From IMG/VR virus record IMGVR_UViG_3300037094_000013, positions 1 to 35,548 of that record: a stretch of 35,548 nt of DNA; one strand, given 5' to 3'. Positions 1,358 to 21,174 of this stretch are shown here, one piece after another. The DNA is from a virus. A program made the position numbers and the translations under genes. Each line of letters starts with the position of its first letter. Within the stretch, counting starts at the first letter, position 1. The notes beneath the pieces are model-generated. The model searched no databases and was not told the DNA's origin. It saw nothing but the letters and a program-made list of their open reading frames with translations.

Positions 1358-2902
1358 TTATTTTTTATCTTTGTTGTCCTCTTCGGGAGTATTTAAAACA
1401 AATGTCCCGATACTTGTTAATATAGTTGCGACAGCTACTGCATTACGCAATGCCATCTCTACTGCCTTAAAGGGTTCGACCACTCCACTTTCCAAAAGGT
1501 TTTCGTACTCATCGGTTGCAGCATTATAACCGATAGTTTTTGTCAATTTGGAGGGGATCACTTTATGTTGAGCGTTCTTTGCAATCTGTCGTACAGATGC
1601 TTCTGCCAACATATGAGCAACACTATCTGCTATCTCGTTATCTTTATAGTCACTGGCATCATAGGCATTGTACATTGACAATCCTCCACCAATCAAATAA
1701 CCAAAGAGCATTGAGGCTCGAACAGCATTAACTGCATCCTCATAACGATAGACCTTTTCACGAGCTTCTCGTTCTGTAGCGCCACCAATTTTGAGAGTAA
1801 CAATACCGTTTGTAAGGGATGCGAGACGAGCCTTTACCTTAGAATCATTCTTATCCTTATCAAGCTCTTCCTTAAGATAAGCAATTCGTTCTTTTAATTC
1901 AGGTGAGTTGTGTTGGTTAGTGAAGAGGATCTTTTGGGGGTCTGCAGATACGCTGGCAGCACGCACGAAATCATCACGACTAATACTATCCACCCGCCTT
2001 CCACTAGACTCAGAAATAACACTCGTTCCCAGGTAAACTGCAAGATCTTCCAAAGCCAAATCATCGCTGAGCTTAGCAAGAACAAGTCCCATAGTCCCAC
2101 GAGCGTGATTAGCAATAAAGGTATTAGGAGCATCGCCCAAGAAGTCCTTAGCAACGATGCACATTTCCTTGAAACCAAGATCCATACCGACTTGCAGTAT
2201 GTGTTCAGCCTCTTCAGCATAGTAAAGTGTCTTATCAAATATAATAACTGGTATCTCCTTATAGGCCATCGTGGGACGGGCAACATCTGAATACAGGTTC
2301 TGGAACTTCATCCCCTCACCTATTCTGAATCCCTCCTGCTTCTCAAGACGAGTCTCCGCGTTGGGATTAAGTTCAAGATAAACCATCCCGTTGAGTCCCG
2401 CTGTAGTTATAGTAGTCAGGACATTCTTTGCAATTTCCACATCCCCACCAGCCGAGATTGTAGCAACCTCTAGCTTTGTCTTATCAGACTTAACCTCTTT
2501 CTTATTCTTCTCAAGGCGCGAGAGAAGTTTATTCAATACATCACCAAAAGTTTCTTTGATGTCATATTGAGACATACCAGAATCCCGCAACTCCATTGCT
2601 TTCTTGATGAGGGCATGGCTATACAAGACGGTTGTTGAGGTTCCATCTCCAGCCTCTGCATTAGTGCGAAGTGAACCATCTTTAATGATATCAACTACTG
2701 CATGTTCAATAGGATCATCAAGTTGAATACCACGAATAATTGTGATACCATCGTTGGTCAGTTCAAAGTTACCCTTATCGGATTCATAGAGAACATTCTT
2801 TCCACGCGGGCCGATAGTTTCTATAACGGGAAGGCTCACCTTTTCGACTGCCTTGATGATCTGATCCCTAACATCCTTCTCTTGATAAAGTGTCTTACTC
2901 AT
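1358..2902 (-). CDS. groEL: Phage-encoded chaperonin GroEL
   Basis: 514 residues, somewhat shorter than the usual 540-550 and without the C-terminal GGM repeat tail. The equatorial ATP site is intact: NDG with Asp51, AGDGTST at 84-90 with Asp86, and YEDAV with Asp389, equivalent to Asp52, Asp87 and Asp398 of Escherichia coli GroEL. The late GGATEREAREK and YNAATDEYENLL stretches match the hinge and lower equatorial regions. The apical domain (roughly 185-365) is the most divergent part, as expected if it is tuned to phage substrates. The start overlaps the end of the NinG-like gene by 8 nt. With the downstream groES this is a complete phage chaperonin pair, presumably ATPase-active. Confidence 0.95.
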   Translation of the reverse strand: MSKTLYQEKDVRDQIIKAVEKVSLPVIETIGPRGKNVLYESDKGNFELTNDGITIIRGIQLDDPIEHAVVDIIKDGSLRTNAEAGDGTSTTVLYSHALIKKAMELRDSGMSQYDIKETFGDVLNKLLSRLEKNKKEVKSDKTKLEVATISAGGDVEIAKNVLTTITTAGLNGMVYLELNPNAETRLEKQEGFRIGEGMKFQNLYSDVARPTMAYKEIPVIIFDKTLYYAEEAEHILQVGMDLGFKEMCIVAKDFLGDAPNTFIANHARGTMGLVLAKLSDDLALEDLAVYLGTSVISESSGRRVDSISRDDFVRAASVSADPQKILFTNQHNSPELKERIAYLKEELDKDKNDSKVKARLASLTNGIVTLKIGGATEREAREKVYRYEDAVNAVRASMLFGYLIGGGLSMYNAYDASDYKDNEIADSVAHMLAEASVRQIAKNAQHKVIPSKLTKTIGYNAATDEYENLLESGVVEPFKAVEMALRNAVAVATILTSIGTFVLNTPEEDNKDKK

Positions 2903-4969: not shown

Positions 4970-4982
4970 GTTAATGTTATTA

Positions 4983-5150
4983 TTTAAGTGGGGAGCCAAA
5001 GGTAAAGTTTTACAGCTGATAAACCTTTGGATAGATGTGAATACTAATTTTAATCTAGTTGCATCCGTGCCACTACTAAGTCCTTTAGGAACCTTTCATG
5101 CACCTTAGCGCCGTATTCAAGGGCACTTATTCAGTCACTCCCCACTTAAA
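4983..5150 (-). ncRNA. Multibranched structured RNA or 5' leader (about 168 nt)
   Basis: On the minus strand a perfect 13-bp helix joins 5138-5150 with 4983-4995 (TTTAAGTGGGGAG and its complement). Inside are three consecutive hairpins: GTGCC 5122-5126 with GGCAC 5067-5071, holding CTAAG/CTTAG and a TCC-TAAA-GGA tip; GATG 5062-5065 with CATC 5034-5037; and CCAAAGGT with ACCTTTGG (4996-5003 with 5023-5030). All nest without conflict, giving a four-way junction. A strong promoter places the transcript start about 7 nt before the outer helix, and the exonuclease ATG follows 13 nt after it. It could be a riboswitch-like leader or a processed RNA; I match it to no known family. Confidence 0.6.
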
Positions 5151-5164
5151 GAACGACTGAATGA

Positions 5165-5251: not shown

Positions 5252-5259
5252 TAGTTTTC
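5252..5259. repeat. Left target-site duplication of methyltransferase element 1
   Basis: TAGTTTTC lies immediately outside the left inverted repeat and is repeated exactly at 5919-5926 immediately outside the right one. An 8-bp direct repeat abutting inverted termini is the footprint of a DDE-type transposition. Confidence 0.75.
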
Positions 5260-5918
5260 GATGCCTATCCCTTCACCTATTTGCCTCGAAGAACGCTTGA
5301 GCAAACTTTTGCGAGCAAAGGGAGCGGAACTCCATATCGCTTTCAGGCACGTGAAGCCCTGCGAACTCTGGTATCAGGTGGTACGCGCTCTTGTGCAGGA
5401 ACGCGAGAGACGGCTTAGGGCGACCTGGGCGCACATACAACGGCAGCTGCGGAACGTCCTCCCATTTCTGGTACACGCGCTCTGGCTTATTGAACTTACC
5501 CCATAGTGCCGTTTTCTTTGTCCACGGCGAGCCGAAGTGCCACGGCTCATACGTCATTGTCGGCTCGCCCAAGAAGTCCTTTAGCCGACCGCTCGCGGGG
5601 TTTTCTATTACCCAAAATGTAGGCTTGCACTCCGCGATAATGCGCTGGCACTCACGCACCAAGAACAGCCCTTTTTCGTAGTCGCCCTGCTTGTGGAAGC
5701 CAGTAGCAATGCTGAACTCGGTACAAACGGGGTTGGCGATTATGCCGTACACGTCCTGTGGCGGGTGGTAGTTTTCTACTCCTATCTCGCTCCCCACAAG
5801 CACCACGTTATAGCCGTTATCGGCGTAGGGCTTGCTGTCGGAACCAGTATCGGCGCACAGGTGCAAGATGGTTTTCATATTCCAAGTGTAGCAATTATGT
5901 CGTCAGGGGATAGGCATC
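5260..5918. mobile_element. Methyltransferase-carrying mobile element 1 (659 bp)
   Basis: The perfect 12-bp inverted termini are GATGCCTATCCC (5260-5271) and GGGATAGGCATC (5907-5918), flanked by the 8-bp direct repeat TAGTTTTC. Almost the whole interior is one gene, the C5-methyltransferase on the minus strand, whose stop begins 1 nt inside the left terminus. The element lies in the 1-nt-to-4-nt zone after the stop of the transglycosylase gene and upstream of the promoter at 5165-5193, so it would disturb neither neighbour. No transposase is present. The same termini bound the element at 10204-10960. A 24-bp right-end sequence (5894-5917) recurs there with one mismatch. Confidence 0.75.
5273..5878 (-). 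CDS. C5-cytosine DNA methyltransferase-like protein
   Basis: 201 residues. The N-terminus LHLCADTGSDS (5-15) is the SAM-binding motif I region, ANPVCTEFS (48-56) carries the catalytic-type Cys52 in the place of the usual PPCxxFS, and VIENPASGRL (90-99) corresponds to the ENV motif. The protein is shorter than typical cytosine methyltransferases and has little room for a target-recognition domain, so specificity is unclear. Base composition is visibly GC-richer than the flanking operon, and the gene fills an element with inverted termini and a target duplication, both signs of transfer. It could mark phage DNA against host restriction. No cognate restriction enzyme is nearby. Confidence 0.75.
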   Translation of the reverse strand: MKTILHLCADTGSDSKPYADNGYNVVLVGSEIGVENYHPPQDVYGIIANPVCTEFSIATGFHKQGDYEKGLFLVRECQRIIAECKPTFWVIENPASGRLKDFLGEPTMTYEPWHFGSPWTKKTALWGKFNKPERVYQKWEDVPQLPLYVRPGRPKPSLAFLHKSAYHLIPEFAGLHVPESDMEFRSLCSQKFAQAFFEANR

Positions 5919-5926
5919 TAGTTTTC
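5919..5926. repeat. Right target-site duplication of methyltransferase element 1
   Basis: TAGTTTTC abuts the right inverted terminus and is identical to 5252-5259. It lies 2-9 nt from the stop codon region of the transglycosylase gene on the minus strand. Confidence 0.75.
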
Positions 5927-5927
5927 A

Positions 5928-6314
5928 TCAATCCCTCCAGCATTTTTCGCTCCACGACCATTGTTCTTTTCCATAATGTTTAAGTATATAGAACCCTGCT
6001 TCTAAGTTCTGTTGGGGATTGGTAATGTCGAATCCGAGTGACATCATTTGCTTCTGCCAGTAGTGGGAATTAATCTGCCAATACGAGTAATCGTATGACC
6101 ATATAATTCCTTCTGCATTCTTATTAGCCCTAAGAGCATTGGGAAGATCTCTCGATTCACATTCGATGATCCTTGTAGCCAGCGCCGCAGATACTTCGTA
6201 TTTCGCTGCCAGAGTATCTATTTGTTCTGTAAGTGTCGGGGGTATTGGGGGTTCGGCTGGGGCTTTATTTGGCCCTAATCCTAAGATTAGAGCGACCAAA
6301 TGGCCAACTATCAT
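5928..6314 (-). CDS. Lytic transglycosylase/lysozyme-like endolysin candidate with N-terminal signal
   Basis: 128 residues. A short hydrophobic N-terminus (MIVGHLVALILGLG) followed by a Pro-rich linker suggests export or a signal-arrest segment. The catalytic region reads ATRIIECESRDLP with the candidate catalytic Glu, then YSYWQINSHYW and NLEAGFYILKHYG, as in soluble lytic transglycosylase (goose-lysozyme-like) folds with the conserved Q-IN and A-ILK-Y-G elements. It would cleave peptidoglycan, either for host lysis or during entry. The next gene downstream was separated from it by methyltransferase element 1. A 96-aa membrane protein in the same operon (8655-8945) could serve as partner, but that is conjecture. 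Confidence 0.75.
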   Translation of the reverse strand: MIVGHLVALILGLGPNKAPAEPPIPPTLTEQIDTLAAKYEVSAALATRIIECESRDLPNALRANKNAEGIIWSYDYSYWQINSHYWQKQMMSLGFDITNPQQNLEAGFYILKHYGKEQWSWSEKCWRD

Positions 6315-7465: not shown

Positions 7466-7657
7466 TTAAATGGCTCTAATACTCACTGACCCAATTAAAC
7501 GCCCTGAGACGGCCCCTTCGGGCACGTATTGAGTGATAATCTCGTCGGCCTCAACTGAGTCACATAACCGGCATAGCCACTGGTTCATCCGGAAACTGTC
7601 TTTGACTATAGGATGTACGATGTGACAGTTCTCACACCCAAATTCGTTTCTTTTCAT
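7466..7657 (-). CDS. Small zinc-ribbon protein, 63 aa
   Basis: ATG 7657 overlaps the stop of the 47-aa membrane protein as ATGA, which fixes the start. Two CxxC pairs (CENC near residue 8 and CRLC near residue 30) make a zinc ribbon or knuckle likely. The C-terminal part has no motif. Small zinc-finger proteins are common in phage early operons as DNA- or protein-binding adaptors; no specific function can be given. Confidence 0.65.
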   Translation of the reverse strand: MKRNEFGCENCHIVHPIVKDSFRMNQWLCRLCDSVEADEIITQYVPEGAVSGRLIGSVSIRAI

Positions 7658-7797
7658 AGTTGAATAACTATCAAAACAATTCCAGTTATTAACATTACCC
7701 AACCAATAAGTTTCTTACCACAGAAGTCTGGATGATAACCAATGATCCCCGCTCCACCAAGGACAAGCAAACCACATAGTCCTATATCTATACTCAT
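7654..7797 (-). CDS. 47-aa membrane protein with two transmembrane helices
   Basis: ATG 7797 to TGA 7654, with ATGA overlaps at both ends to its neighbours, which is strong evidence that this short frame is translated. The sequence shows two hydrophobic segments: residues 5-20 (GLCGLLVLGGAGIIG) and 31-46 (IGWVMLITGIVLIVIQ), joined by a short loop with HPDFCGKK. The topology is that of a small hairpin membrane protein. A holin-like or superinfection role is possible but unproven. Confidence 0.65.
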   Translation of the reverse strand: MSIDIGLCGLLVLGGAGIIGYHPDFCGKKLIGWVMLITGIVLIVIQL

Positions 7798-8306
7798 AGA
7801 TTAAATGTTTCCTTAATTATATCTGAACCTAACTCATGTACCTTCTGCATGGTGCCAGTTTCCTTTGTCTTCTTCATGACCATGTACTCGTAGGTTCTAG
7901 TTGTAACTCCTTCAGCAACTCTCTTATCATACACTGCCTCACGGAAGTCGTGTTGAGAAAGAACTTTTGCTTGTTCAACTAACTCCTTTATATCTTCTTT
8001 TTTTGCTAGGGGAAGTAGGTAGAACAAACTCTTCGTGGGGATGTCTGCAATCTCTTCCTCTTCGTATCCAAGTTGAAGTACAAAGACTTCATAGATTTGC
8101 ATGAGGCGAGTTGCCTCTGACTTCGATAATCCAATTTCTGGATCGCGCAAATAATCTTCCCACTTATCTGCACCCTGTCCTACACACTTCTTAAATGCAT
8201 CTTCCTTTTTCAAATGATAAAGAAGCTTACCTATCATCACCGCACTCTCTTTTGTTAACCTTACTTCCTTAAGGAGTGCCTTATGGAAGGAGTATGGTGC
8301 TGACAT
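7794..8306 (-). CDS. Hypothetical helical protein, 170 aa, DUF3102-like pattern
   Basis: The start ATG 8306 lies 2 nt after the upstream stop; a TTG 3 codons earlier is less likely. The N-terminal half reads like a helical DUF3102-type phage protein, with IGKLLYHLKKE, then WEDYLRDPEIGLSKSEATRLMQIYEVF, a helix-turn-helix-like stretch. A later segment (LLPLAKKEDIKELVEQAKVLSQHDFREAV) resembles that found in ParB-like or regulator-like phage proteins. DNA binding is plausible but I cannot name a function. It sits between SSB-like and small membrane genes in the recombination part of the operon. Confidence 0.6.
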   Translation of the reverse strand: MSAPYSFHKALLKEVRLTKESAVMIGKLLYHLKKEDAFKKCVGQGADKWEDYLRDPEIGLSKSEATRLMQIYEVFVLQLGYEEEEIADIPTKSLFYLLPLAKKEDIKELVEQAKVLSQHDFREAVYDKRVAEGVTTRTYEYMVMKKTKETGTMQKVHELGSDIIKETFNL

Positions 8307-10147: not shown

Positions 10148-10203
10148 ACTATCATCTAATGCTACTTGATGTCAAGGGGGAATCTGTGGTGTAATGTTTT
10201 AGG

Positions 10204-10960
10204 GATGCCTATCCCGTAGCAACAAACTATTTTCGTGTGCCATAATGTACGAATGAATAAATCTGTCATATATTCAATCTTTTATTTATAATATCTATGT
10301 ATTTTCCGTCAATTTCAATTCCAATATATTCTCTCCCTAGATTTTTACACGCAAGTAATGTAGTGCCAGAACCAGCGAATGGATCAACTATAATTTTATC
10401 CTCTGGTATTAGTTTAATTATATTCTCCATAACTTCTAAAGGCATTTGGCAGGGGTGTGAAGTTTTATCTTTAGAAACATTTTTTACTTGATTTATATTC
10501 CACCAATCATACCCTCTTGCTAGTTTTCCATCTGCTATCCTTTTCATTATTCTTTTATCGGTAGGGTTTTTGAAAGGTTGTCCTAGTTTTCTAAAATCTG
10601 GTTTTATTCCAAAAAATGCTATATCTCTATGTTGTTTTGCTGTATTTGAATTATAAACCCAGCTGATAACTTTTTGTGGTATTTCTTCTACCGCCCAAGA
10701 GATTTTATAAATACTTTCTGGGTAATGAATTACCACAAATGGAGCAAACTTGAAAACTTCCCTCAACCAAGAGTAATACTCATCTTCTTCCAAGTTGTCT
10801 TTATAATCCCCATAATGATAACCGATATTAAATGGCGGATCTGTAACTATGACAAAATCGCCTTTTATTTTTGCTAACTCTACTAAACAATCCGATTGTA
10901 TTATTTTATTCATACTAGAAGTATATATCTATCGCATTATGTCGTGAGGGGATAGGCATG
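10204..10960. mobile_element. Methyltransferase-carrying mobile element 2 (about 757 bp)
   Basis: Left terminus GATGCCTATCCC (10204-10215) and right terminus GGGATAGGCATG (10949-10960) are the same inverted repeats as element 1, with one terminal mismatch on the right. Flanking bases GTTTTAGG (10196-10203) and CTTTTAGG (10961-10968) match at 7 of 8, a slightly decayed target duplication. The interior holds a single amino-methyltransferase gene on the minus strand and about 50 bp of AT-rich non-coding sequence at the left. The right end supplies the last ten codons and stop of the primase zinc-finger gene. No transposase is present. Confidence 0.75.
10266..10913 (-). CDS. Amino-type DNA methyltransferase (N6-adenine or N4-cytosine)
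   Basis: 215 residues. DPPF (25-28) is the catalytic motif IV, HPCQMP (153-158) is the HPxQxP element common before the SAM site, and DPFAGSGTTLLA (177-188) is motif I, followed by GREYIGIEID. This permuted order (catalytic motif first, SAM site last) is that of beta-class methyltransferases. No clear target-recognition domain is seen beyond the middle region, so specificity is unknown. It is AT-rich, unlike the C5 enzyme in element 1, although both elements have the same termini. A likely role is protecting phage DNA from restriction; no partner nuclease is adjacent. Confidence 0.88.
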   Translation of the reverse strand: MNKIIQSDCLVELAKIKGDFVIVTDPPFNIGYHYGDYKDNLEEDEYYSWLREVFKFAPFVVIHYPESIYKISWAVEEIPQKVISWVYNSNTAKQHRDIAFFGIKPDFRKLGQPFKNPTDKRIMKRIADGKLARGYDWWNINQVKNVSKDKTSHPCQMPLEVMENIIKLIPEDKIIVDPFAGSGTTLLACKNLGREYIGIEIDGKYIDIINKRLNI

Positions 10961-11204
10961 CTTTTAGGTACTCTGTTGCATCGTGGAACGAATATCCCAT
11001 ATCAACCAGGAATGAAATAGCTCCATGCCCATTTTTACCGCATCCAAAACAGTGATATCCACCATCGGGATAAAGAACACAAGATGGACTACGTTCTTCG
11101 TGGAATGGACATCTAACCGATATTCGTCTTCCTGGTTTTAATCCCAATAACGTAGGAATCGGAATCTCACGCAATCTCTGTAGTTCACTTACACTGAGTT
11201 CCAT
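10929..11204 (-). CDS. Primase zinc-binding protein (CHC2 type), 3' end replaced by element 2
   Basis: 91 residues. The DnaG-type zinc ribbon is clear: RCPFHEERSPS with Cys32 and His35, then YHCFGCGKNG with Cys52 and Cys55, followed by GAISFLVDMGYSF. Such domains read the template for primer start in DnaG and T7 gp4. Here the domain is a separate protein, translated after the TOPRIM-helicase gene with a 16-nt overlap, so the T7-type primase is split. The last residues (ACLSPHDIMR) are encoded by the inserted element; without it the frame would read LKHYTTDSPLTSSSIR before its stop. The core zinc domain is unaffected. Confidence 0.85.
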   Translation of the reverse strand: MELSVSELQRLREIPIPTLLGLKPGRRISVRCPFHEERSPSCVLYPDGGYHCFGCGKNGHGAISFLVDMGYSFHDATEYLKACLSPHDIMR

Positions 11205-12712
11205 AGATCGTCGCTAGCTTCTTGTACCTGTGCAATCTCTCTTGGGGATGTCGAGTGTTTAAATGTCTTTCCATAAACTCCCGTTGATGGATTGAATGTG
11301 TATATTCCATCTCCCATTTCACCTTTATTTTTTAAAACGTCAACCGAAATCTCATTAAGCGAGTTTGTCTCTGACAACATTATAACCACTTCTGGGTCTT
11401 GATAGAGGGAAGATGATCCCTTTAAGTCCTCGATGTTTGGTTTGCGAGTTCTCGCAATGAATCCACCAGGTCGCTCCGTCTTACGAACGTGAGATACTAT
11501 GAGTAATACTATTCCAGAGTCTTCTGCAATTCTTTTAAGTTTTTGTAAGGTGTCCATGATCGCGTCCCCCCTAGAGCCACTACTCAATTGACGCACCATG
11601 TAGTCCAGGTGATCTATGATAACAACCTGAATATCAAAGTACTTCTTAGACTTAGATATAAACTCTACGGTGTGATCTTTATCTGGCATTGCAAAGTATA
11701 TGGGAAGGCCAGAAGCATCCTTCATTACCCTATCCCAGTCCTCGTCTTTGTACATCGCAAGCTCCGTTAGTCCCGCGTCTTCGCGTATCTGTAGGAAGCG
11801 TCGCCCAACAGAATCAATGCCACGCTCAAACGGGAGTATCAATGTTGGTATGTTGTGATTAGCAAACTCATTAGCTATGTTCATAACATACGAAGTCTTG
11901 CCAACGTTACTACGTCCAGAGATGATTCCCATCCATCCCTTTTCAAAGTTTATTTGTGGCATGAACTTAGAGCTGATTGTTGCCACCTCTCCCTTACGAA
12001 GAGACTCTATCACATCCCCCATTGTCTTGAATTGTTGACGCGTGAATGGTTTGGAAGACTTAAGTACTTCTCGAAACTCGTCCACTGAATGTTTAGTCAA
12101 AAACTCATTTGGATCCTTGCAATCCCCATAGTCGATACTGTAACACCTATCCTGTCCAAGTCTCTCTGCCATTTTGCGTGCTGCCATCTTTCCTGGTTCA
12201 TCATTGTCATATCCTATATAGATTCGTGGGATATTGTCAATGAGTTCTAACCATCCCCCAAATGAATCCTTACCAGCAGATGGAGAAACAACATTCTTCA
12301 CCCCAGCTTGCCAAGCAGACATCGCATCAAACTCACCCTCAACAACAAGGACAAATCCTTTCTTAGACGCTTCGTGGATTCCATCTTGGTTAAACACCCA
12401 TGATTCTGCCCCATGCTCTCCAGAATATTTATTATCAACTGGTTCTAGGAAACGATACTTGATATTAACGAGTTCGTCGTTCTTGAACACTGGAATAGCA
12501 ATGGCGCTTGGGGATGTCTGGAAGCCAAGTTTAAAGTGACGGATGGTCTCGTCGTTTAACCCTCTTTTTTTAAGGTAGTCAAGTCCGTCTGTGGTATCCC
12601 ACAAATTCTTAATTAGGGAATCAAGCTTGGAGATGTCAGGACGAGAATATTCACGGCCCAAAGTTTCCCTAATGGATTGCAATTTTTCACTGATCGGTGT
12701 TTGTAATTCCAT
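11189..12712 (-). CDS. TOPRIM primase-DnaB-type helicase fusion
   Basis: 507 residues. The N-terminal part has a TOPRIM domain: VVEGEFDA (123-130) and YDNDEPGK (168-175) carry the metal-binding acids. The C-terminal half is a RecA-like hexameric helicase: SGRSNVGKT (265-273, Walker A), VVIIDHLDYM (363-372, Walker B), then IVLLIVSHVRK and DLKGSSSLYQDPEVV. This is T7 gp4 without its zinc domain, which is encoded by the next gene. It should prime and unwind at the phage fork. ATG 12712 was chosen because it follows the AAATAAT leader shared by other genes; an ATG at 12739 would overlap the upstream gene by 13 nt. Confidence 0.9.
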   Translation of the reverse strand: MELQTPISEKLQSIRETLGREYSRPDISKLDSLIKNLWDTTDGLDYLKKRGLNDETIRHFKLGFQTSPSAIAIPVFKNDELVNIKYRFLEPVDNKYSGEHGAESWVFNQDGIHEASKKGFVLVVEGEFDAMSAWQAGVKNVVSPSAGKDSFGGWLELIDNIPRIYIGYDNDEPGKMAARKMAERLGQDRCYSIDYGDCKDPNEFLTKHSVDEFREVLKSSKPFTRQQFKTMGDVIESLRKGEVATISSKFMPQINFEKGWMGIISGRSNVGKTSYVMNIANEFANHNIPTLILPFERGIDSVGRRFLQIREDAGLTELAMYKDEDWDRVMKDASGLPIYFAMPDKDHTVEFISKSKKYFDIQVVIIDHLDYMVRQLSSGSRGDAIMDTLQKLKRIAEDSGIVLLIVSHVRKTERPGGFIARTRKPNIEDLKGSSSLYQDPEVVIMLSETNSLNEISVDVLKNKGEMGDGIYTFNPSTGVYGKTFKHSTSPREIAQVQEASDDLWNSV

Positions 12713-12726
12713 ATTATTTATGTATT

Positions 12727-13023
12727 TTAGATCGTCCATACATCTGTTTCTCGCTTAGCGTTGTTAATCATCTCGCGCCTGTGGCTTCTAGTGTTGCGTG
12801 TGTGACGATTGCCACCAAGTAACATTTCAAGTGCCAGATCGACCGTGCCGACGTCAATTCCAATTATTGACTCTCTTTCACGCCTTAGTAGTTCTTTAGA
12901 GATAGTGGGGAAAGGATCGGGCATTGGCTTTGTTTTTGCACCAGGTTTAACCATAAGAAACCATTTGTATACAGATTTAAGTGGTAATCCATCATTCCTG
13001 TTCGGCATATTCTGTGATCGCAT
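12727..13023 (-). CDS. Hypothetical 98-aa protein
   Basis: Between the ATP-grasp and primase-helicase genes, overlapping the former by 32 nt if ATG 13023 is used or 17 nt if ATG 13008 is used. It contains a Pro-rich segment (KPMPDPFPTI), an acidic/aliphatic stretch (IIGIDVGTVDLALEML) and a basic C-terminal region (RHTRNTRSHRREM). I recognise no domain. A helicase-loader-like role would be typical of the position but nothing in the sequence proves it. Confidence 0.6.
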   Translation of the reverse strand: MRSQNMPNRNDGLPLKSVYKWFLMVKPGAKTKPMPDPFPTISKELLRRERESIIGIDVGTVDLALEMLLGGNRHTRNTRSHRREMINNAKRETDVWTI

Positions 13024-13759
13024 TAGCGTAGGCAGTTTGTCCCATCGGGCTAACGCCCGCCGCCGTGCCTACCTCTAGGACGTATGATCTGTCCCGATAT
13101 CTGATAATGTCCACCGCCCCAAAATCAAGCCCCAATGCCTCTATTGCCTCTCTAGCGCGAAGTACAACACCCTCTCTAGGGGAGACATCGCGCAAGAAGT
13201 AAAAGCCGTTGTGGGCGTTTTTAATGCGTTCTGCGGGGGCCGCCTCGTAAGTGCCATCCTCGCGCTGTTTCATTTTCTTGGCATAGTCAATTGCTTCGCC
13301 CTTAAAAATGTGAACACGATATTCCTCGCACGGATTGAGTAGCTTTGTGTAAAGCGGGGCTGGCTGGATCGTGTCGGGGGTAGATATACGAATACCCGCC
13401 CCCCCACTACCCGTAAGCGTGTGTCGCTCTACGATGTCATGCCACTGTCGTGCCTCGTCTATGTCCACTGTCCACGGTACTGTTCGCACTCCAGCCTCGC
13501 TTAGTTTTTCAAAAGTTCGTAGCTTATTTACTGCCAGTGCTACTGCACTTGGCTTGTTCAAAATCTGTTCGGGATTGTATGCCCATTGTGGCTCTCTAGA
13601 ATTACCCCAGTTGACAATTAGATCATCAACACGACTAGTATAGCGACGATTAGGATACACCCTAATTGTGTTTTTCCCATTATTACGTTGAAGCGCGTCG
13701 GCTATACCCCGTGAAGACGCACTGGCTATTTTGTAAGGAAAAATGACGATCCTACCCAT
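12992..13759 (-). CDS. ATP-grasp ligase-like protein
   Basis: 255 residues. An N-terminal region (VNWGNSREPQW, NKPSAVALAVNKLRTFEKL) precedes the ATP-grasp core: ERHTLTGSGGAGIRI as the glycine-rich loop, EEYRVHIFKGEAI, and the metal-binding end LDFGAVDIIRYRDRSYVLEVGTA. This architecture recurs in phage ATP-grasp proteins that comparative genomics groups with phage amidoligases and class II glutamine amidotransferases. It may join amino acids or amines to peptides together with the products of 16727-21929, although it lies in the opposite, replication operon. GC content is higher than in adjacent genes. The exact substrate is unknown. Confidence 0.75.
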   Translation of the reverse strand: MGRIVIFPYKIASASSRGIADALQRNNGKNTIRVYPNRRYTSRVDDLIVNWGNSREPQWAYNPEQILNKPSAVALAVNKLRTFEKLSEAGVRTVPWTVDIDEARQWHDIVERHTLTGSGGAGIRISTPDTIQPAPLYTKLLNPCEEYRVHIFKGEAIDYAKKMKQREDGTYEAAPAERIKNAHNGFYFLRDVSPREGVVLRAREAIEALGLDFGAVDIIRYRDRSYVLEVGTAAGVSPMGQTAYANAITEYAEQE

Positions 13760-16726: not shown

Positions 16727-18295
16727 ATGCCTAACGCACCACAAAATAACCAACCCACACAGGCACAGCAAAATATGGAGCAACTGCGTAGGGGTTTGTT
16801 AGAAGACTTTGTACCAGATCGTCATTTGATAGGATGTGATCGTTGCGGTGGGGTAATAGAAGAAAATGCACAGAGAGTTGAGGGGATGTTTGGCTTTAGG
16901 ATTCTTTGTGCGCCGTGCTTCATTGAGCTAACAAGAAACCAAGAAGTTTTTGAGCCTCATGATAAAAAAAAGCCCAAGCCTAAGTTTGAACAAGGCACGA
17001 TCATCAAGTCGGATCGCCAGTTTGGACTAGAGTTTGAAGTGAACCTAGACCTTGCTGGGCAACATACACTACGCGACCTTGTGGCCCGTGATTTTAACCT
17101 AGTTCACGATGGTAGCGTAAACGCTGGTATAGAGGTAGTTTCTCCCATACTTTGCGGTAAGACAGGCGAAGACAAGATAAAAGCCATGTGTTCCTCACTA
17201 CAAAAGGTAAAGGCTGGCGCAGATGATAGCTGTGGACTTCATGTTCACATTGACGCCGCAGATTATTTTGAGAACACAAGAATAGATCTCACCACCCTTT
17301 CGGTGATCGGTAAAATAAGAGACTGTAGAATATACGTTTTGGACGCCACCCTACAAAAGACAATGCGCGAGGATAACTACGGGCTATGGGAGGCTGTCTA
17401 TTCTAACGGATCGCTAGATCAATTCACGGTCAACGAGTTTCTGGATTATATGCAAAGTGGAAAGTCCGTAGCAAACCTACCCGTTGTGTGGGCAGATGAT
17501 GGAAAAGTTGCAGAAACTTTTATACAATTCTACACGCCGATTGGATCGCGTGGTGCAAGAATTAAAAACAACGACAGTATAAAGACGGAGGCAGACATTA
17601 AAAAATATCACGGTGAACCATCCCTTGTCACGTTCGGATATTCCAAGTTTGTTGTCATAGACAGGGAGACTTCTAATAATCTTTATTGTGTTTGTGTACC
17701 TAAGTCTTATAGCAAGGGAGATAAGGATCGCCTAGATAGAATTAAGCGCGTGGCCTCATTCTATATCGCATTTGATGACGTGCTTGCCGCGATGTTGCCA
17801 TGTGATAGACGCGACAATGACTTTGCGATCCGTGCGTCAACGCGCATGTCCATACGAGACGTATCGGTTTGCGCTTCTATCCTTGACTTTTTCAACGCAT
17901 GGACAAAGACAAAGGACTTGCGTGGATTCAGACTGTCAATGGGAGAACAACGACACGAAAGCCGATACTATGGGATCAATTTTAGGGCATTATTAAAACA
18001 CGGCACTATCGAGATTCGATATCACGCAGGTACTACAGACGCCGACAAAGCTCTCCACTGGACTGCTCTACATCAGCGTATTGTGGACATCGCCGCAGAC
18101 CTAAAAGACCCCCGCTTTAACCTTGACAGATTGGAAAAGGCAGACATGGTTATCGAAATAGATCGTAAGGCAGACCTATTTTTCGCCAAGCTAAACCTAC
18201 CAAGCGATACAGAGACATACTTGCGTAAGCGCATATCTGAGTATTCTGGTGAGGATTCACATTTTGTTGAAAGTTTAATCGCAGACGATAAATAA
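16727..18295 (+). CDS. Amidoligase-family enzyme (PF12224-like) with N-terminal zinc knuckle
   Basis: 522 residues. A zinc knuckle (CDRC 37-40; CAPC 61-64) precedes an amidoligase core of the glutamine-synthetase-like COOH-NH2 ligase superfamily: FGLEFEVN (99-106), HDGS (127-130), GIEVVSP (134-140), CGLHVHID (169-176) and later GTIEIRYHAGTTDADKA. Family members are predicted to make amide bonds between carboxylates and amines using ATP. It is the first gene of an operon with a glutamine amidotransferase, a second amidoligase and a gamma-glutamylcyclotransferase, so a peptide- or cell-wall-modifying pathway is likely. The exact substrate cannot be read from sequence. Confidence 0.8.
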   Translation: MPNAPQNNQPTQAQQNMEQLRRGLLEDFVPDRHLIGCDRCGGVIEENAQRVEGMFGFRILCAPCFIELTRNQEVFEPHDKKKPKPKFEQGTIIKSDRQFGLEFEVNLDLAGQHTLRDLVARDFNLVHDGSVNAGIEVVSPILCGKTGEDKIKAMCSSLQKVKAGADDSCGLHVHIDAADYFENTRIDLTTLSVIGKIRDCRIYVLDATLQKTMREDNYGLWEAVYSNGSLDQFTVNEFLDYMQSGKSVANLPVVWADDGKVAETFIQFYTPIGSRGARIKNNDSIKTEADIKKYHGEPSLVTFGYSKFVVIDRETSNNLYCVCVPKSYSKGDKDRLDRIKRVASFYIAFDDVLAAMLPCDRRDNDFAIRASTRMSIRDVSVCASILDFFNAWTKTKDLRGFRLSMGEQRHESRYYGINFRALLKHGTIEIRYHAGTTDADKALHWTALHQRIVDIAADLKDPRFNLDRLEKADMVIEIDRKADLFFAKLNLPSDTETYLRKRISEYSGEDSHFVESLIADDK

Positions 18296-18301
18296 TAATT
18301 T

Positions 18302-19750
18302 ATGTGTGGTATCTTATGGGTAGATAGTAAACGTGGTATGAGTGCTGTAAAGCCACTAATAAAGCGATACCGAAAACAGGATCATCGCGGAAAGTCGGGA
18401 TATGGTTACGTTGCGGTAGATGCCAACGGATTCGTTGGTGAGATACACCGCAGTACAGACGAAGACGGGATCATGGAGGCACTTGCAAGTGAACAGTCTA
18501 GTAAGATTCTGTTTCATCATCGCTCCCCCACAAGTCTACCTAACTATGTGGGCGCAACCCACCCATTCAAGATCAGTAAGGACGATTTTGATTTTGATTA
18601 TTACATCGTACATAACGGCGTGATCGCTAATGCAGAGTTTCTTTTTGGTGAATACAAAAAGGCTGGTATAAAGTTCATGTCCGAAATGGCAGAGGGAAAA
18701 TACCATGAGTTTGTCAACACCGACGAATACTACGAGGACTTGGAAACTAAAACAAAGGTAAACGATAGCGAGGTTTTTGCAGTTGACATGGCCGCATTTA
18801 TCGAGGGAAAGCAAACGTGGGTAAAGTCGGCGGGCACCATCGCTTTCATTGGCCTACAAGTATTCAAGAATGGTAAGGACGCTGGCAAGGTCAACTCCCT
18901 ATTTTGGGGACGAAATAATGGCAATCCTGTATGCCTAGAAGAAGACAATGTTTTGTTCACATTGTCAAGCGAAGCTGGTGGAAAAGAAGTAGACGCTGAC
19001 AAAATATATTTCAAAAACTGGCAGACAGGCGAGATCACCACCAAACAAGCCAACGGTATTGCTTATCATGGATTCTCTACAAATGCAAGCGGAATCAAAA
19101 ATGTACATAAGACTAAAGCCGAAAGAAAGGCAGAACGTTGCGCCGCGCGTAAGGCTGGCCAGTCCAACGGCCTACCCGAAGATGCTGTTATACTCTATGA
19201 TGGTGGCCCTAACGAGCCAGAACCAGACCCCGAAATTGACGACGCCGTTGCAAGAATGACGGGCACAAGGATAGAGTCACACCCCTCATTTGATTGGATA
19301 GAAACCCTTAAAGCAACGCAAGATCAAGACGTAAACTTAAAGACCATGTGGGGACTTCTACCCACAAAGTCTAAATTACTTGCCGCAGGTGCCGCAGAGC
19401 AAGTAGAGGATATGACGCTTATTGACATCGGCATTGACCTTAACGCAATAGACAATGAGATCGAAGCGGCAGACATGGGGCGTGGTGACGCAGACGCAGG
19501 GCTGTTGCGACAATTGCGCGACGATTTACAGGATGATCTTGATAGTGAAAATGACGCACTAAGGGAGTTGCGATCTGCACAAGAATTGTTGCGTGAGGCC
19601 GTACAAGCAAAGCCATTCATTCTTAAAGACAGTGAAGAAGCAAAAGCCATGGTGGACGCCGCAAGCTCACAGTGGGGCGAGGCACACAACGCCCGTATTG
19701 CTACATGTGCCGAACTAGAAGCTCACATGGGTGCCTATGGTGGATGGTGA
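18302..19750 (+). CDS. Class II glutamine amidotransferase
   Basis: 482 residues. The N-terminal Ntn-hydrolase domain is diagnostic: MCGILWVD with catalytic Cys2 (exposed after Met removal), FHHRSPTS (71-78), ATHPF (85-89) and VHNGVIAN (103-110). The domain would hydrolyse glutamine to supply ammonia. The C-terminal 200 residues are acidic and coiled-coil-like (RQLRDDLQDDLDSENDALRE) with no synthetase domain, so ammonia would be delivered to a partner, probably the amidoligases beside it. It starts 6 nt after the first amidoligase and overlaps the 110-aa gene. Confidence 0.85.
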   Translation: MCGILWVDSKRGMSAVKPLIKRYRKQDHRGKSGYGYVAVDANGFVGEIHRSTDEDGIMEALASEQSSKILFHHRSPTSLPNYVGATHPFKISKDDFDFDYYIVHNGVIANAEFLFGEYKKAGIKFMSEMAEGKYHEFVNTDEYYEDLETKTKVNDSEVFAVDMAAFIEGKQTWVKSAGTIAFIGLQVFKNGKDAGKVNSLFWGRNNGNPVCLEEDNVLFTLSSEAGGKEVDADKIYFKNWQTGEITTKQANGIAYHGFSTNASGIKNVHKTKAERKAERCAARKAGQSNGLPEDAVILYDGGPNEPEPDPEIDDAVARMTGTRIESHPSFDWIETLKATQDQDVNLKTMWGLLPTKSKLLAAGAAEQVEDMTLIDIGIDLNAIDNEIEAADMGRGDADAGLLRQLRDDLQDDLDSENDALRELRSAQELLREAVQAKPFILKDSEEAKAMVDAASSQWGEAHNARIATCAELEAHMGAYGGW

Positions 19751-20069
19751 ATGGGTAAAAACAGGTAAGGTATGGATCAAGATTTATCCCACAAAAAAGA
19801 AAGATATGCTCTCTAAAAGCGTCCCCGTAGCAATACAATTTAACCTAGAGTGCGAGAACGGACGCAAGGCACAGCGTGTAGTCCCGTTGCGGGGTAGGGA
19901 TGTTGACACTTGCTTATATCGTGTTAGCCGACAAATCGTAGAAGCCAGCGATCTTGTTAGCAAAAATATGTGGATCGAGGAACACAAAGTAATTTACGAC
20001 TTGCCATTACCAGACGAGATGAAATTATTAGACGTGCCAGAACGGAGTGTGAATTATAAATTAAGTTGA
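19737..20069 (+). CDS. Hypothetical 110-aa protein in the amidoligase operon
   Basis: ATG 19737 lies in the last codons of the amidotransferase gene (14-nt overlap); a GTG at 19731 is possible. It begins MVDGEWVKTGKVWIKIYP, contains alternating hydrophobic strands (VPVAIQFNLEC; RKAQRVVPLRG) and a helix (RVSRQIVEASDLV). No catalytic motif or family is recognised. Tight packing between pathway enzymes suggests a partner or regulatory subunit. Confidence 0.65.
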   Translation: MVDGEWVKTGKVWIKIYPTKKKDMLSKSVPVAIQFNLECENGRKAQRVVPLRGRDVDTCLYRVSRQIVEASDLVSKNMWIEEHKVIYDLPLPDEMKLLDVPERSVNYKLS

Positions 20070-20073
20070 CGCC

Positions 20074-21174
20074 ATGAACGCCTTAACATACTACAGCATT
20101 TCGATGGGGTGTGATCCAGAGTTTTTCTTTAGCAAGGATGGTAAAATCGTTGGTAGTGAAAAGCTGATACCCAAAGAAGGGAAAGTATTGTTTAACAAGG
20201 GTGACAGCACAATGGGAACACACGCGCTCACTTCCGATTCAGTTGCCGGAAAGATCATCATAGATGGTGTGCAAGCCGAACTGAACCCGCGCCCACACTC
20301 ATGCCGTGCAACATTGGGAAATGAGATCGCGTGGTGTTTCCGTAAGATCAAGAATGAGTTATTGAAAGACGGCAATACCATAGATTTCTCACAAGCCGTT
20401 GAAGTCTCTAAGGAGGAGATGGATAGCCTTAGTGCGTCGTCTAAGCGTTTTGGATGTTCGCCATCACACAATGCCTACGCAGAGGATGGCAATAGTAAAA
20501 TCACCGTCAATCCGTTAGTCTATCGTACCCGTGCGGCAGGTGGGCATATTCATCTTGGCCCGAACCCATCCGACACGCTAGAGACGCAACGCAAGATCAA
20601 GGATGCACTTGACAATCATAAGATTATAGTGCCTATTCTAGACTTGATTGTAGGCAATACTTGTGTTCTGGTAGACAGGAACCCGTCAAACATAGAGCGA
20701 CGCAAGGTATATGGCAAGGCAGGTGAATACCGTACCCCAAAATACGGGCTGGAATACCGCACCTTGTCTAACTTCTGGCTAACATCATACCCACTGTTTG
20801 GAATGGCCTTTGGGCTTGCTAGGCTCGCGGTAAATATCGTTGCAAACGATACAGAGGACTTTTCCTACTCTAAAGCATTATTGGAAAAGGTGCGTATGCG
20901 CGATGTTGTTAAAGCGATCAACGAAAATGACTTCGACCTTGCGTTGAAAAACTTTAACGCGATAAAGCCGTTGCTCATAGAAATGGTGGGTGTTGGAGGC
21001 CATCATCCCATTACAACGGGAAACATCGCATATTTTGAACACTTTATCACTAAGCCCATGTCCTATTGGTTTAAGGAAAACCCCCTAGACCATTGGATCG
21101 GACTTGGCGATGGTCATGCTGGGGGATTCGAGGACTTTCTAGCAAAGGTCGTTTCTAAGGACATGGTAAAGTAG
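20074..21174 (+). CDS. phiEco32-type COOH-NH2 ligase (amidoligase type 2)
   Basis: 366 residues. It shows the family's sequence landmarks in order: MGCDPEFFF (11-19), DGVQAELNPRP (64-74), AAGGHIHLGP (154-163) and GLEYRTLSNFW (225-235), with acid and His residues that would bind ATP-metal as in glutamine-synthetase-like ligases. This is the family first described in phage phiEco32 and predicted to form amide links. It is distinct from the amidoligase at 16727, so the cluster has two ligases of the superfamily. It lies 4 nt after the 110-aa gene and 1 nt before the next gene. Confidence 0.85.
   Translation: MNALTYYSISMGCDPEFFFSKDGKIVGSEKLIPKEGKVLFNKGDSTMGTHALTSDSVAGKIIIDGVQAELNPRPHSCRATLGNEIAWCFRKIKNELLKDGNTIDFSQAVEVSKEEMDSLSASSKRFGCSPSHNAYAEDGNSKITVNPLVYRTRAAGGHIHLGPNPSDTLETQRKIKDALDNHKIIVPILDLIVGNTCVLVDRNPSNIERRKVYGKAGEYRTPKYGLEYRTLSNFWLTSYPLFGMAFGLARLAVNIVANDTEDFSYSKALLEKVRMRDVVKAINENDFDLALKNFNAIKPLLIEMVGVGGHHPITTGNIAYFEHFITKPMSYWFKENPLDHWIGLGDGHAGGFEDFLAKVVSKDMVK

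Follow-up and report, generated by a model that had tools for sequence, protein, structure and literature searches.

Two methyltransferase genes of a phage lie in transposase-less cassettes bounded by IS1595-type transposon ends

The DNA analyzed here, referred to as the window, is a virus record of 35,548 bp with terminase, portal and head protease genes. At 5260-5918 it contains a 659-bp element, W1, which carries a single C5-methyltransferase-like gene and no transposase gene. The ends of W1 are perfect 12-bp inverted repeats (GATGCCTATCCC) at 5260-5271 (plus strand) and 5907-5918 (minus strand), directly bordered by the 8-bp target duplication TAGTTTTC, as had been described in the original prediction. 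The prediction had also stated that a 201-codon methyltransferase-like gene is the sole content of W1 and almost touches both ends. Indeed, a 201-aa open reading frame (ORF) runs from 5878 to 5273 on the minus strand, and its stop codon TGA (5273-5275) sits within the left terminal sequence. W1 is placed directly downstream of a gene for a lysozyme-like protein with an SLT domain (5928-6314). Searching for the motif of the W1 end revealed a second element in the same phage, W2 (757 bp, 10204-10960), which the prediction had overlooked, with the end motif at 10204 (plus strand) and 10949-10960 (minus strand). The features of the two elements are:

5252..5259, no strand: left target-site duplication of W1, TAGTTTTC, 8/8 match to 5919-5926
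5260..5276, plus strand: left terminal inverted repeat of W1, perfect over 12 bp, fitting the family consensus over ~17 bp and holding the cargo stop codon
5273..5878, minus strand: W1 cargo P0001, a C5-cytosine-methyltransferase-like protein of 201 aa, apparently full length (phrog_757, alignment, AlphaFold model)
5894..5918, minus strand: right terminal inverted repeat of W1, 25 bp, adjoining the cargo start codon; 24/25 to the family consensus and matching the right end of W2
5919..5926, no strand: right target-site duplication of W1, pairing with 5252-5259
10196..10203, no strand: left target-site duplication of W2, GTTTTAGG, 7/8 identical to 10961-10968
10204..10215, plus strand: left terminal inverted repeat of W2, GATGCCTATCCC, 12 bp identical to the left end of W1
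10266..10913, minus strand: W2 cargo P0002, an N4/N6 DNA methyltransferase of 215 aa (PF01555, E=1.2e-30)
10929..11204, minus strand: primase CHC2 zinc-finger gene with its 3' end interrupted by W2 (PF01807, E=5.3e-13)
10936..10960, minus strand: right terminal inverted repeat of W2, 25/25 to the family consensus
10961..10968, no strand: right target-site duplication of W2, CTTTTAGG, 7/8 to the left copy

The window was searched for perfect 12-bp inverted pairs spaced 300-1500 bp apart and enclosed by a perfect 8-bp direct repeat. W1 was the single match, and the same search on dinucleotide shuffles of the window returned such a structure in 0/200 cases. The right end of W1 is conserved across 25 bp (5894-5918), the left end for ~17 bp, after which the methyltransferase coding sequence starts. 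Over 25 bp, the right end of W2 differs from that of W1 at two positions. The two elements depart from their flanks in opposite directions in GC content, W1 with 0.546 (flanks 0.411) and W2 with 0.325 (flanks 0.429). Given this difference, and as P0001 and P0002 are unrelated, the two methyltransferases were probably acquired separately. Note that a further inverted repeat of 16 bp (94%), with its arms at 4980-4995 and 5138-5153 (142 nt apart), lies just left of W1, outside the element.

At the W2 site, translation across the joined flanks was compared with the present sequence. With W2 in place, the last 10 codons and the stop of the zinc-finger gene are supplied by the element; with W2 removed, the frame continues for 14 further codons to its own stop. 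The zinc-finger gene (10929-11204) is separate from, and downstream of, a Toprim-DnaB-like primase-helicase gene (11189-12739, minus strand).

The original assignment of the W1 cargo to the C5-methyltransferases is supported by PHROG and by the predicted fold, but not by Pfam at its cut-off. P0001 matched phrog_757 (DNA methyltransferase) with E=1.5e-27, while its match to the Pfam C5 family was weak (E=0.005, below cut-off). An AlphaFold model of P0001 (pLDDT 88.9) gave fold matches in the PDB to DNMT3A, M.HhaI and M.HaeIII; a sequence search of the PDB with the P0001 family returned 0 matches at E<=0.01. In an alignment of 18 sequences (P0001 and 17 relatives at 53-85% identity), P0001 retains all invariant residues, those of NPxC and ENP among them, and its C-terminus coincides with that of most of the relatives. 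The cysteine of NPxC is presumably the catalytic residue.

Near-full-length relatives of P0001 in 17 other viral contigs (L003-L019) have no W1-type ends; an 18th match (L020), aligned over 15 residues only, was left out of this test. According to the original prediction, relatives carrying the gene with different boundaries would show that the repeats are not element ends. On its face, this applies to the 17 copies, but the ends are established independently through other cargo, and these are resident copies of the methyltransferase gene at other places. No empty W1 or W2 site was found in a close relative, a primase-helicase query having returned no relatives in viral_contigs. L007, a contig considered as an empty site, has several distantly related genes in common with the window; it was rejected because gene order and orientation differ.

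Strict patterns of the ends gave 0 matches in viral_contigs and genome_contigs, and the patterns were therefore loosened, with scans returning 6, 7, 7 and 17 stretches. In viral_contigs, these scans identified four further two-ended cassettes lacking a transposase:

L021 (L023 is the same region): 344 bp, duplication GAGTTATC at 8/8, encoding a DUF6527 protein
L051: 798 bp, duplication GATAACTT at 8/8, encoding an N4/N6 methyltransferase
L027: 471 bp, flanks matching at 6/8, with two small ORFs
L024: 324 bp (7482-7805), flanks forming inverted, not direct, repeats, with an 86-aa ORF

Together with W1 and W2 this makes six cassettes. The duplication is 8/8 in three of them, and a lone methyltransferase is the cargo in 3/6. 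The L027 and L051 records represent phages, since both have terminase genes and L027 encodes a major head protein as well. No structural genes were detected among the ORFs scanned in the L021 and L024 records (four and one, respectively). Both inverted flanks of L024 contain a DnaA-box-like site, and our guess is that they arose by recombination between two oppositely oriented copies. A second, non-cassette methyltransferase (L024 8324-8956), 33% identical to the L051 cargo, is encoded 0.5 kb away. Several stretches were not counted: L025, L026, L028, L029 and 12 new ones (L083-L094) were dropped as unpaired or chance matches, including two weak pairs with poor end scores and duplications of 7/8 (L083) and 6/8 (L093), and L049 and L052 have another end type. 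This end type, GGTAATTATCCCTTGACAACAT, bounds ~1.34 kb in L049 (1-1343) and L052 (12956 to the end), a different element; the two viral contigs come from one sample.

As checks on the element, the original prediction had suggested searching phage and bacterial sequence for the termini and looking for a transposase between identical ends. Beyond the cassettes in viral records, this led to full-length copies with a transposase in both Patescibacteria and viral records, for example L030, L131, L050, L053 and L054. The end common to cassettes and full-length copies is 25 bp long, about CAYRCCTATCCCYTSACRACATAAT. In genome_contigs (84,980 species genomes), a scan with the ends yielded only three stretches, from two MAGs, one of Candidatus Kaiserbacteria and one of 0.8 Mb. 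The Candidatus Kaiserbacteria MAG contains an element of 2,055 bp (L030) with the exact duplication TAGTTATC and an ISXO2-like transposase (PF12762, E=4.6e-34). Relatives of this transposase are present in 14/297 genomes of its order at E<=1e-20. Seven of them (L033-L039, at least 51% identity) were inspected, and an end of the W1 type was present in 7/7. Both ends were found in 5/7 (including L030/L033), with exact 8-bp duplications in 5/5. Across the phylum, transposase matches occurred in 18/379 genomes at E<=1e-40. Two new matches exceed 50% identity: L095, with both ends and an exact duplication, and L096, at which no such ends or duplication were found. The 8-bp duplication is exact in every full-length copy of this clade with both ends. 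Around transposases at a greater distance (35-46%), related ends starting with GG are frequent, again with exact 8-bp duplications.

In viral records, an intact transposase lies between such ends in L131 (from the record of L022), L050, L053 and L054, and a truncated one in L055, with exact duplications in 5/5. The Pfam domain of the transposase was confirmed for L131, L050 and L054, while L053 was assigned by 56-57% identity to L050 and L054. The L054 record has portal and terminase genes and the L053 record an integrase gene. L131 is arranged as right end, 174-aa passenger, transposase and left end. The slot between right end and transposase corresponds to that of the cassette genes, and in layout L131 is a cassette plus a transposase. 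As a control, the pair finder was run on the reversed sequence of 95 loci and gave one pair. A query of viral_contigs with the transposase P0003 returned no relatives, a negative that reflects the single-sequence search, since related transposases do occur there (L050, L053, L054, L131). Many MITE-like copies of 121-124 bp with related ends were also seen (L031 583-703 and 2439-2559; genomes G002 and G142); P0003 had no match in genome G002.

Insertion appears to favor a particular target. In 12 of 15 elements tested, the motif TTATNCACA, a DnaA-box consensus, was matched at 7 or 8 of 8 positions when read at a constant offset relative to the duplication; among random positions of these loci, 0.13% match at 7/8 or better. 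The sites of W1 and W2, at 5/8 each, are two of the three elements below 7. The flank of L131, which was left out of the 15, reads TTATCCACA.

The ends also contain sequences that resemble signals for gene expression. In the orientation of the cargo gene, the distal end supplies the stop codon in 5/6 cassettes: the C-termini read VVKG-stop in L021, L027 and L051 and IMS-stop in L024, and the TGA of W1 lies inside the end. The exception is W2, whose cargo stops ahead of the distal end. In nine copies with a transposase (L030, L035-L038, L050, L053-L055), the transposase-proximal end matches TTGACA at 5 or 6 of 6 positions, and the best -10-like hexamer, 15-16 bp further, matches at 3 to 5 of 6. 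The passenger-proximal end of L131 has TTGACA and TATAAT, 16 bp apart. The corresponding -35 hexamers of W1 (4/6) and W2 (3/6) are weaker, so that expression of the cargo from the ends is just a suggestion in these two elements.

The original prediction had called W1 a transposon-like element, a reading much strengthened by the occurrence of the same ends around unrelated genes in this and other viral records and around IS1595-type transposases. W1 and W2 are very likely non-autonomous mobile insertion cassettes of an IS1595-type (ISXO2-like) transposon family found in Patescibacteria and their mobile elements, and are probably mobilized in trans. We infer that the cognate DDE transposase would come from a full-length copy of the host or of a co-resident element; in the phage itself, an end-copy search of the window and family scans of 32 ORFs revealed no transposase with such ends. 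The enzyme would bind the ends and excise or copy the cassette; integration at a favored 8-bp site would then generate the 8-bp duplication. Full-length copies consist of end, passenger plus transposase, and end, so that loss of the transposase gene would turn one into such a cassette, a possible route of gene capture. The gene-proximal end has a -35-like hexamer, and may act as part of a promoter, and the distal end has the stop codon of the cargo. The benefit of the cassettes is probably to shield phage DNA from host restriction.

Alternatively, W1 and W2 could be decayed full-length copies that brought their own transposase at insertion and lost its gene in place, leaving relics that are immobile in trans. 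Full-length copies with one passenger and a transposase do exist, and the transposase of L055 is truncated. However, W1, W2, L021, L024 and L051 contain no transposase remnant long enough for an ORF, and their cargo fills the space from end to end. Moreover, the duplication of W1 is intact, two independent losses within one 35-kb phage would be required, and the five compact small cassettes resemble units that are mobile as such. We therefore consider in-place decay unlikely.

Far less probably, the repeats are not transposon ends but serve a different kind of recombination, as integron-like sites or within homologous-recombination modules common to phages. The inverted rather than direct flanks of L024 and the swapping of modules among phages would fit such sites, but exact 8-bp duplications of varied sequence at many sites would not, and the full-length copies, with identical ends around IS1595-type transposases, largely refute this explanation. 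That an ordinary phage methyltransferase merely happens to be flanked by inverted repeats, as might be suspected from the relatives of the gene that lack ends in other phages, is refuted by the 0/200 shuffles and by the second copy in the window and further copies elsewhere.

Extending the interpretation of W1 and W2 as trans-mobilized cassettes, we propose tentatively, and with more doubt than confidence, that phages of Patescibacteria share an enzyme-less cassette system. Such cassettes would carry single genes, often anti-restriction methyltransferases, between ends that combine transposase sites, part of a promoter and a stop codon, and would be moved between phages by a transposase of the host or a co-infecting element that favors DnaA-box-like sites. 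If true, this system would parallel integron cassettes, but on the basis of a transposon.

The ends point to a putative host of the phage in Patescibacteria. Neither the terminase of the window nor P0001 had matches in the 297 genomes of the Kaiserbacteria order (0 each), and a search of the phages collection with the portal protein returned no match. The window also encodes GroES-like and GroEL-like chaperonins (896-1285 and 1358-2902, minus strand); distant GroEL homologues are found on the L024 and L027 contigs, with 23-26% identity to that of the window and 31% to each other. Genes of amino-acid ligase type are located at 12992-13759 (minus strand) and 16727-21174 (plus strand), with similarity to the RimK-like S6 glutaminyl transferase family, amidoligase, glutamine amidotransferase (weak) and COOH.NH2 ligase.

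Phages gain anti-restriction methyltransferases very often, and the route by which single genes enter is usually invisible. Here the vehicle can be seen: one phage has two cassettes that share their ends but carry unrelated methyltransferases, and the transposase matching these ends is present in Patescibacteria and in further viral records. Such ends provide a handle for linking uncultured phages with Patescibacteria hosts and for testing trans-mobilization of phage genes by a host transposase.

According to the original prediction, a mobile unit of this kind has little precedent. This holds in part, as one-gene cassettes with insertion sequence (IS) ends but no transposase are known as MIC elements, among them mic-qnrD and mic-qnrS2. 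Passages of PMC3913671 define MIC elements by inverted repeats, target duplication and absence of a transposase, with one or a few passenger genes inside, and describe MIC231 of Bacillus cereus as moved in trans by IS231A; a passage of PMC3129680 mentions them as well. Structurally, W1 and W2 are such elements: they have IS-type inverted repeats, a target duplication (8/8 and 7/8), one gene and no transposase, and their ends match those of transposase-bearing full-length copies. In contrast to MIC231, the ends and the 8-bp duplication are of the IS1595 type rather than IS231, and the present cassettes are phage-borne, with a lone methyltransferase in 3/6 and an end-supplied stop codon in 5/6.

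Members of the IS1595 family carry passenger genes. In passages of PMC9330008, elements combining passengers with a transposase are termed transporter IS, a passage of PMC12561309 describes an IS1595 member with 8-bp repeats, and an entry in the reference list of PMC3129680 presents the family as blurring the divide between IS and transposons. Like these, the full-length relatives have a PF12762 DDE domain, 8-bp duplications and extra genes, whereas W1 and W2 lack the ISXO2-like transposase, and the ends of the clade begin CAYRCCTATCCC, compared with GGGGCTGTACTAGA in ISApl4. W1 and W2 share with MITEs, such as the short copies in G002 and G142, the same ends without a transposase, but each holds an intact gene. 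Identity with integron gene cassettes is unlikely in view of the exact 8-bp duplications of varied sequence. No description of transposase-less IS1595-type cassettes in phages or Patescibacteria was found among the titles and abstract openings returned by literature searches. What appears to be new are the IS1595-type ends, the setting in phages and Patescibacteria, and a lone methyltransferase as cargo.
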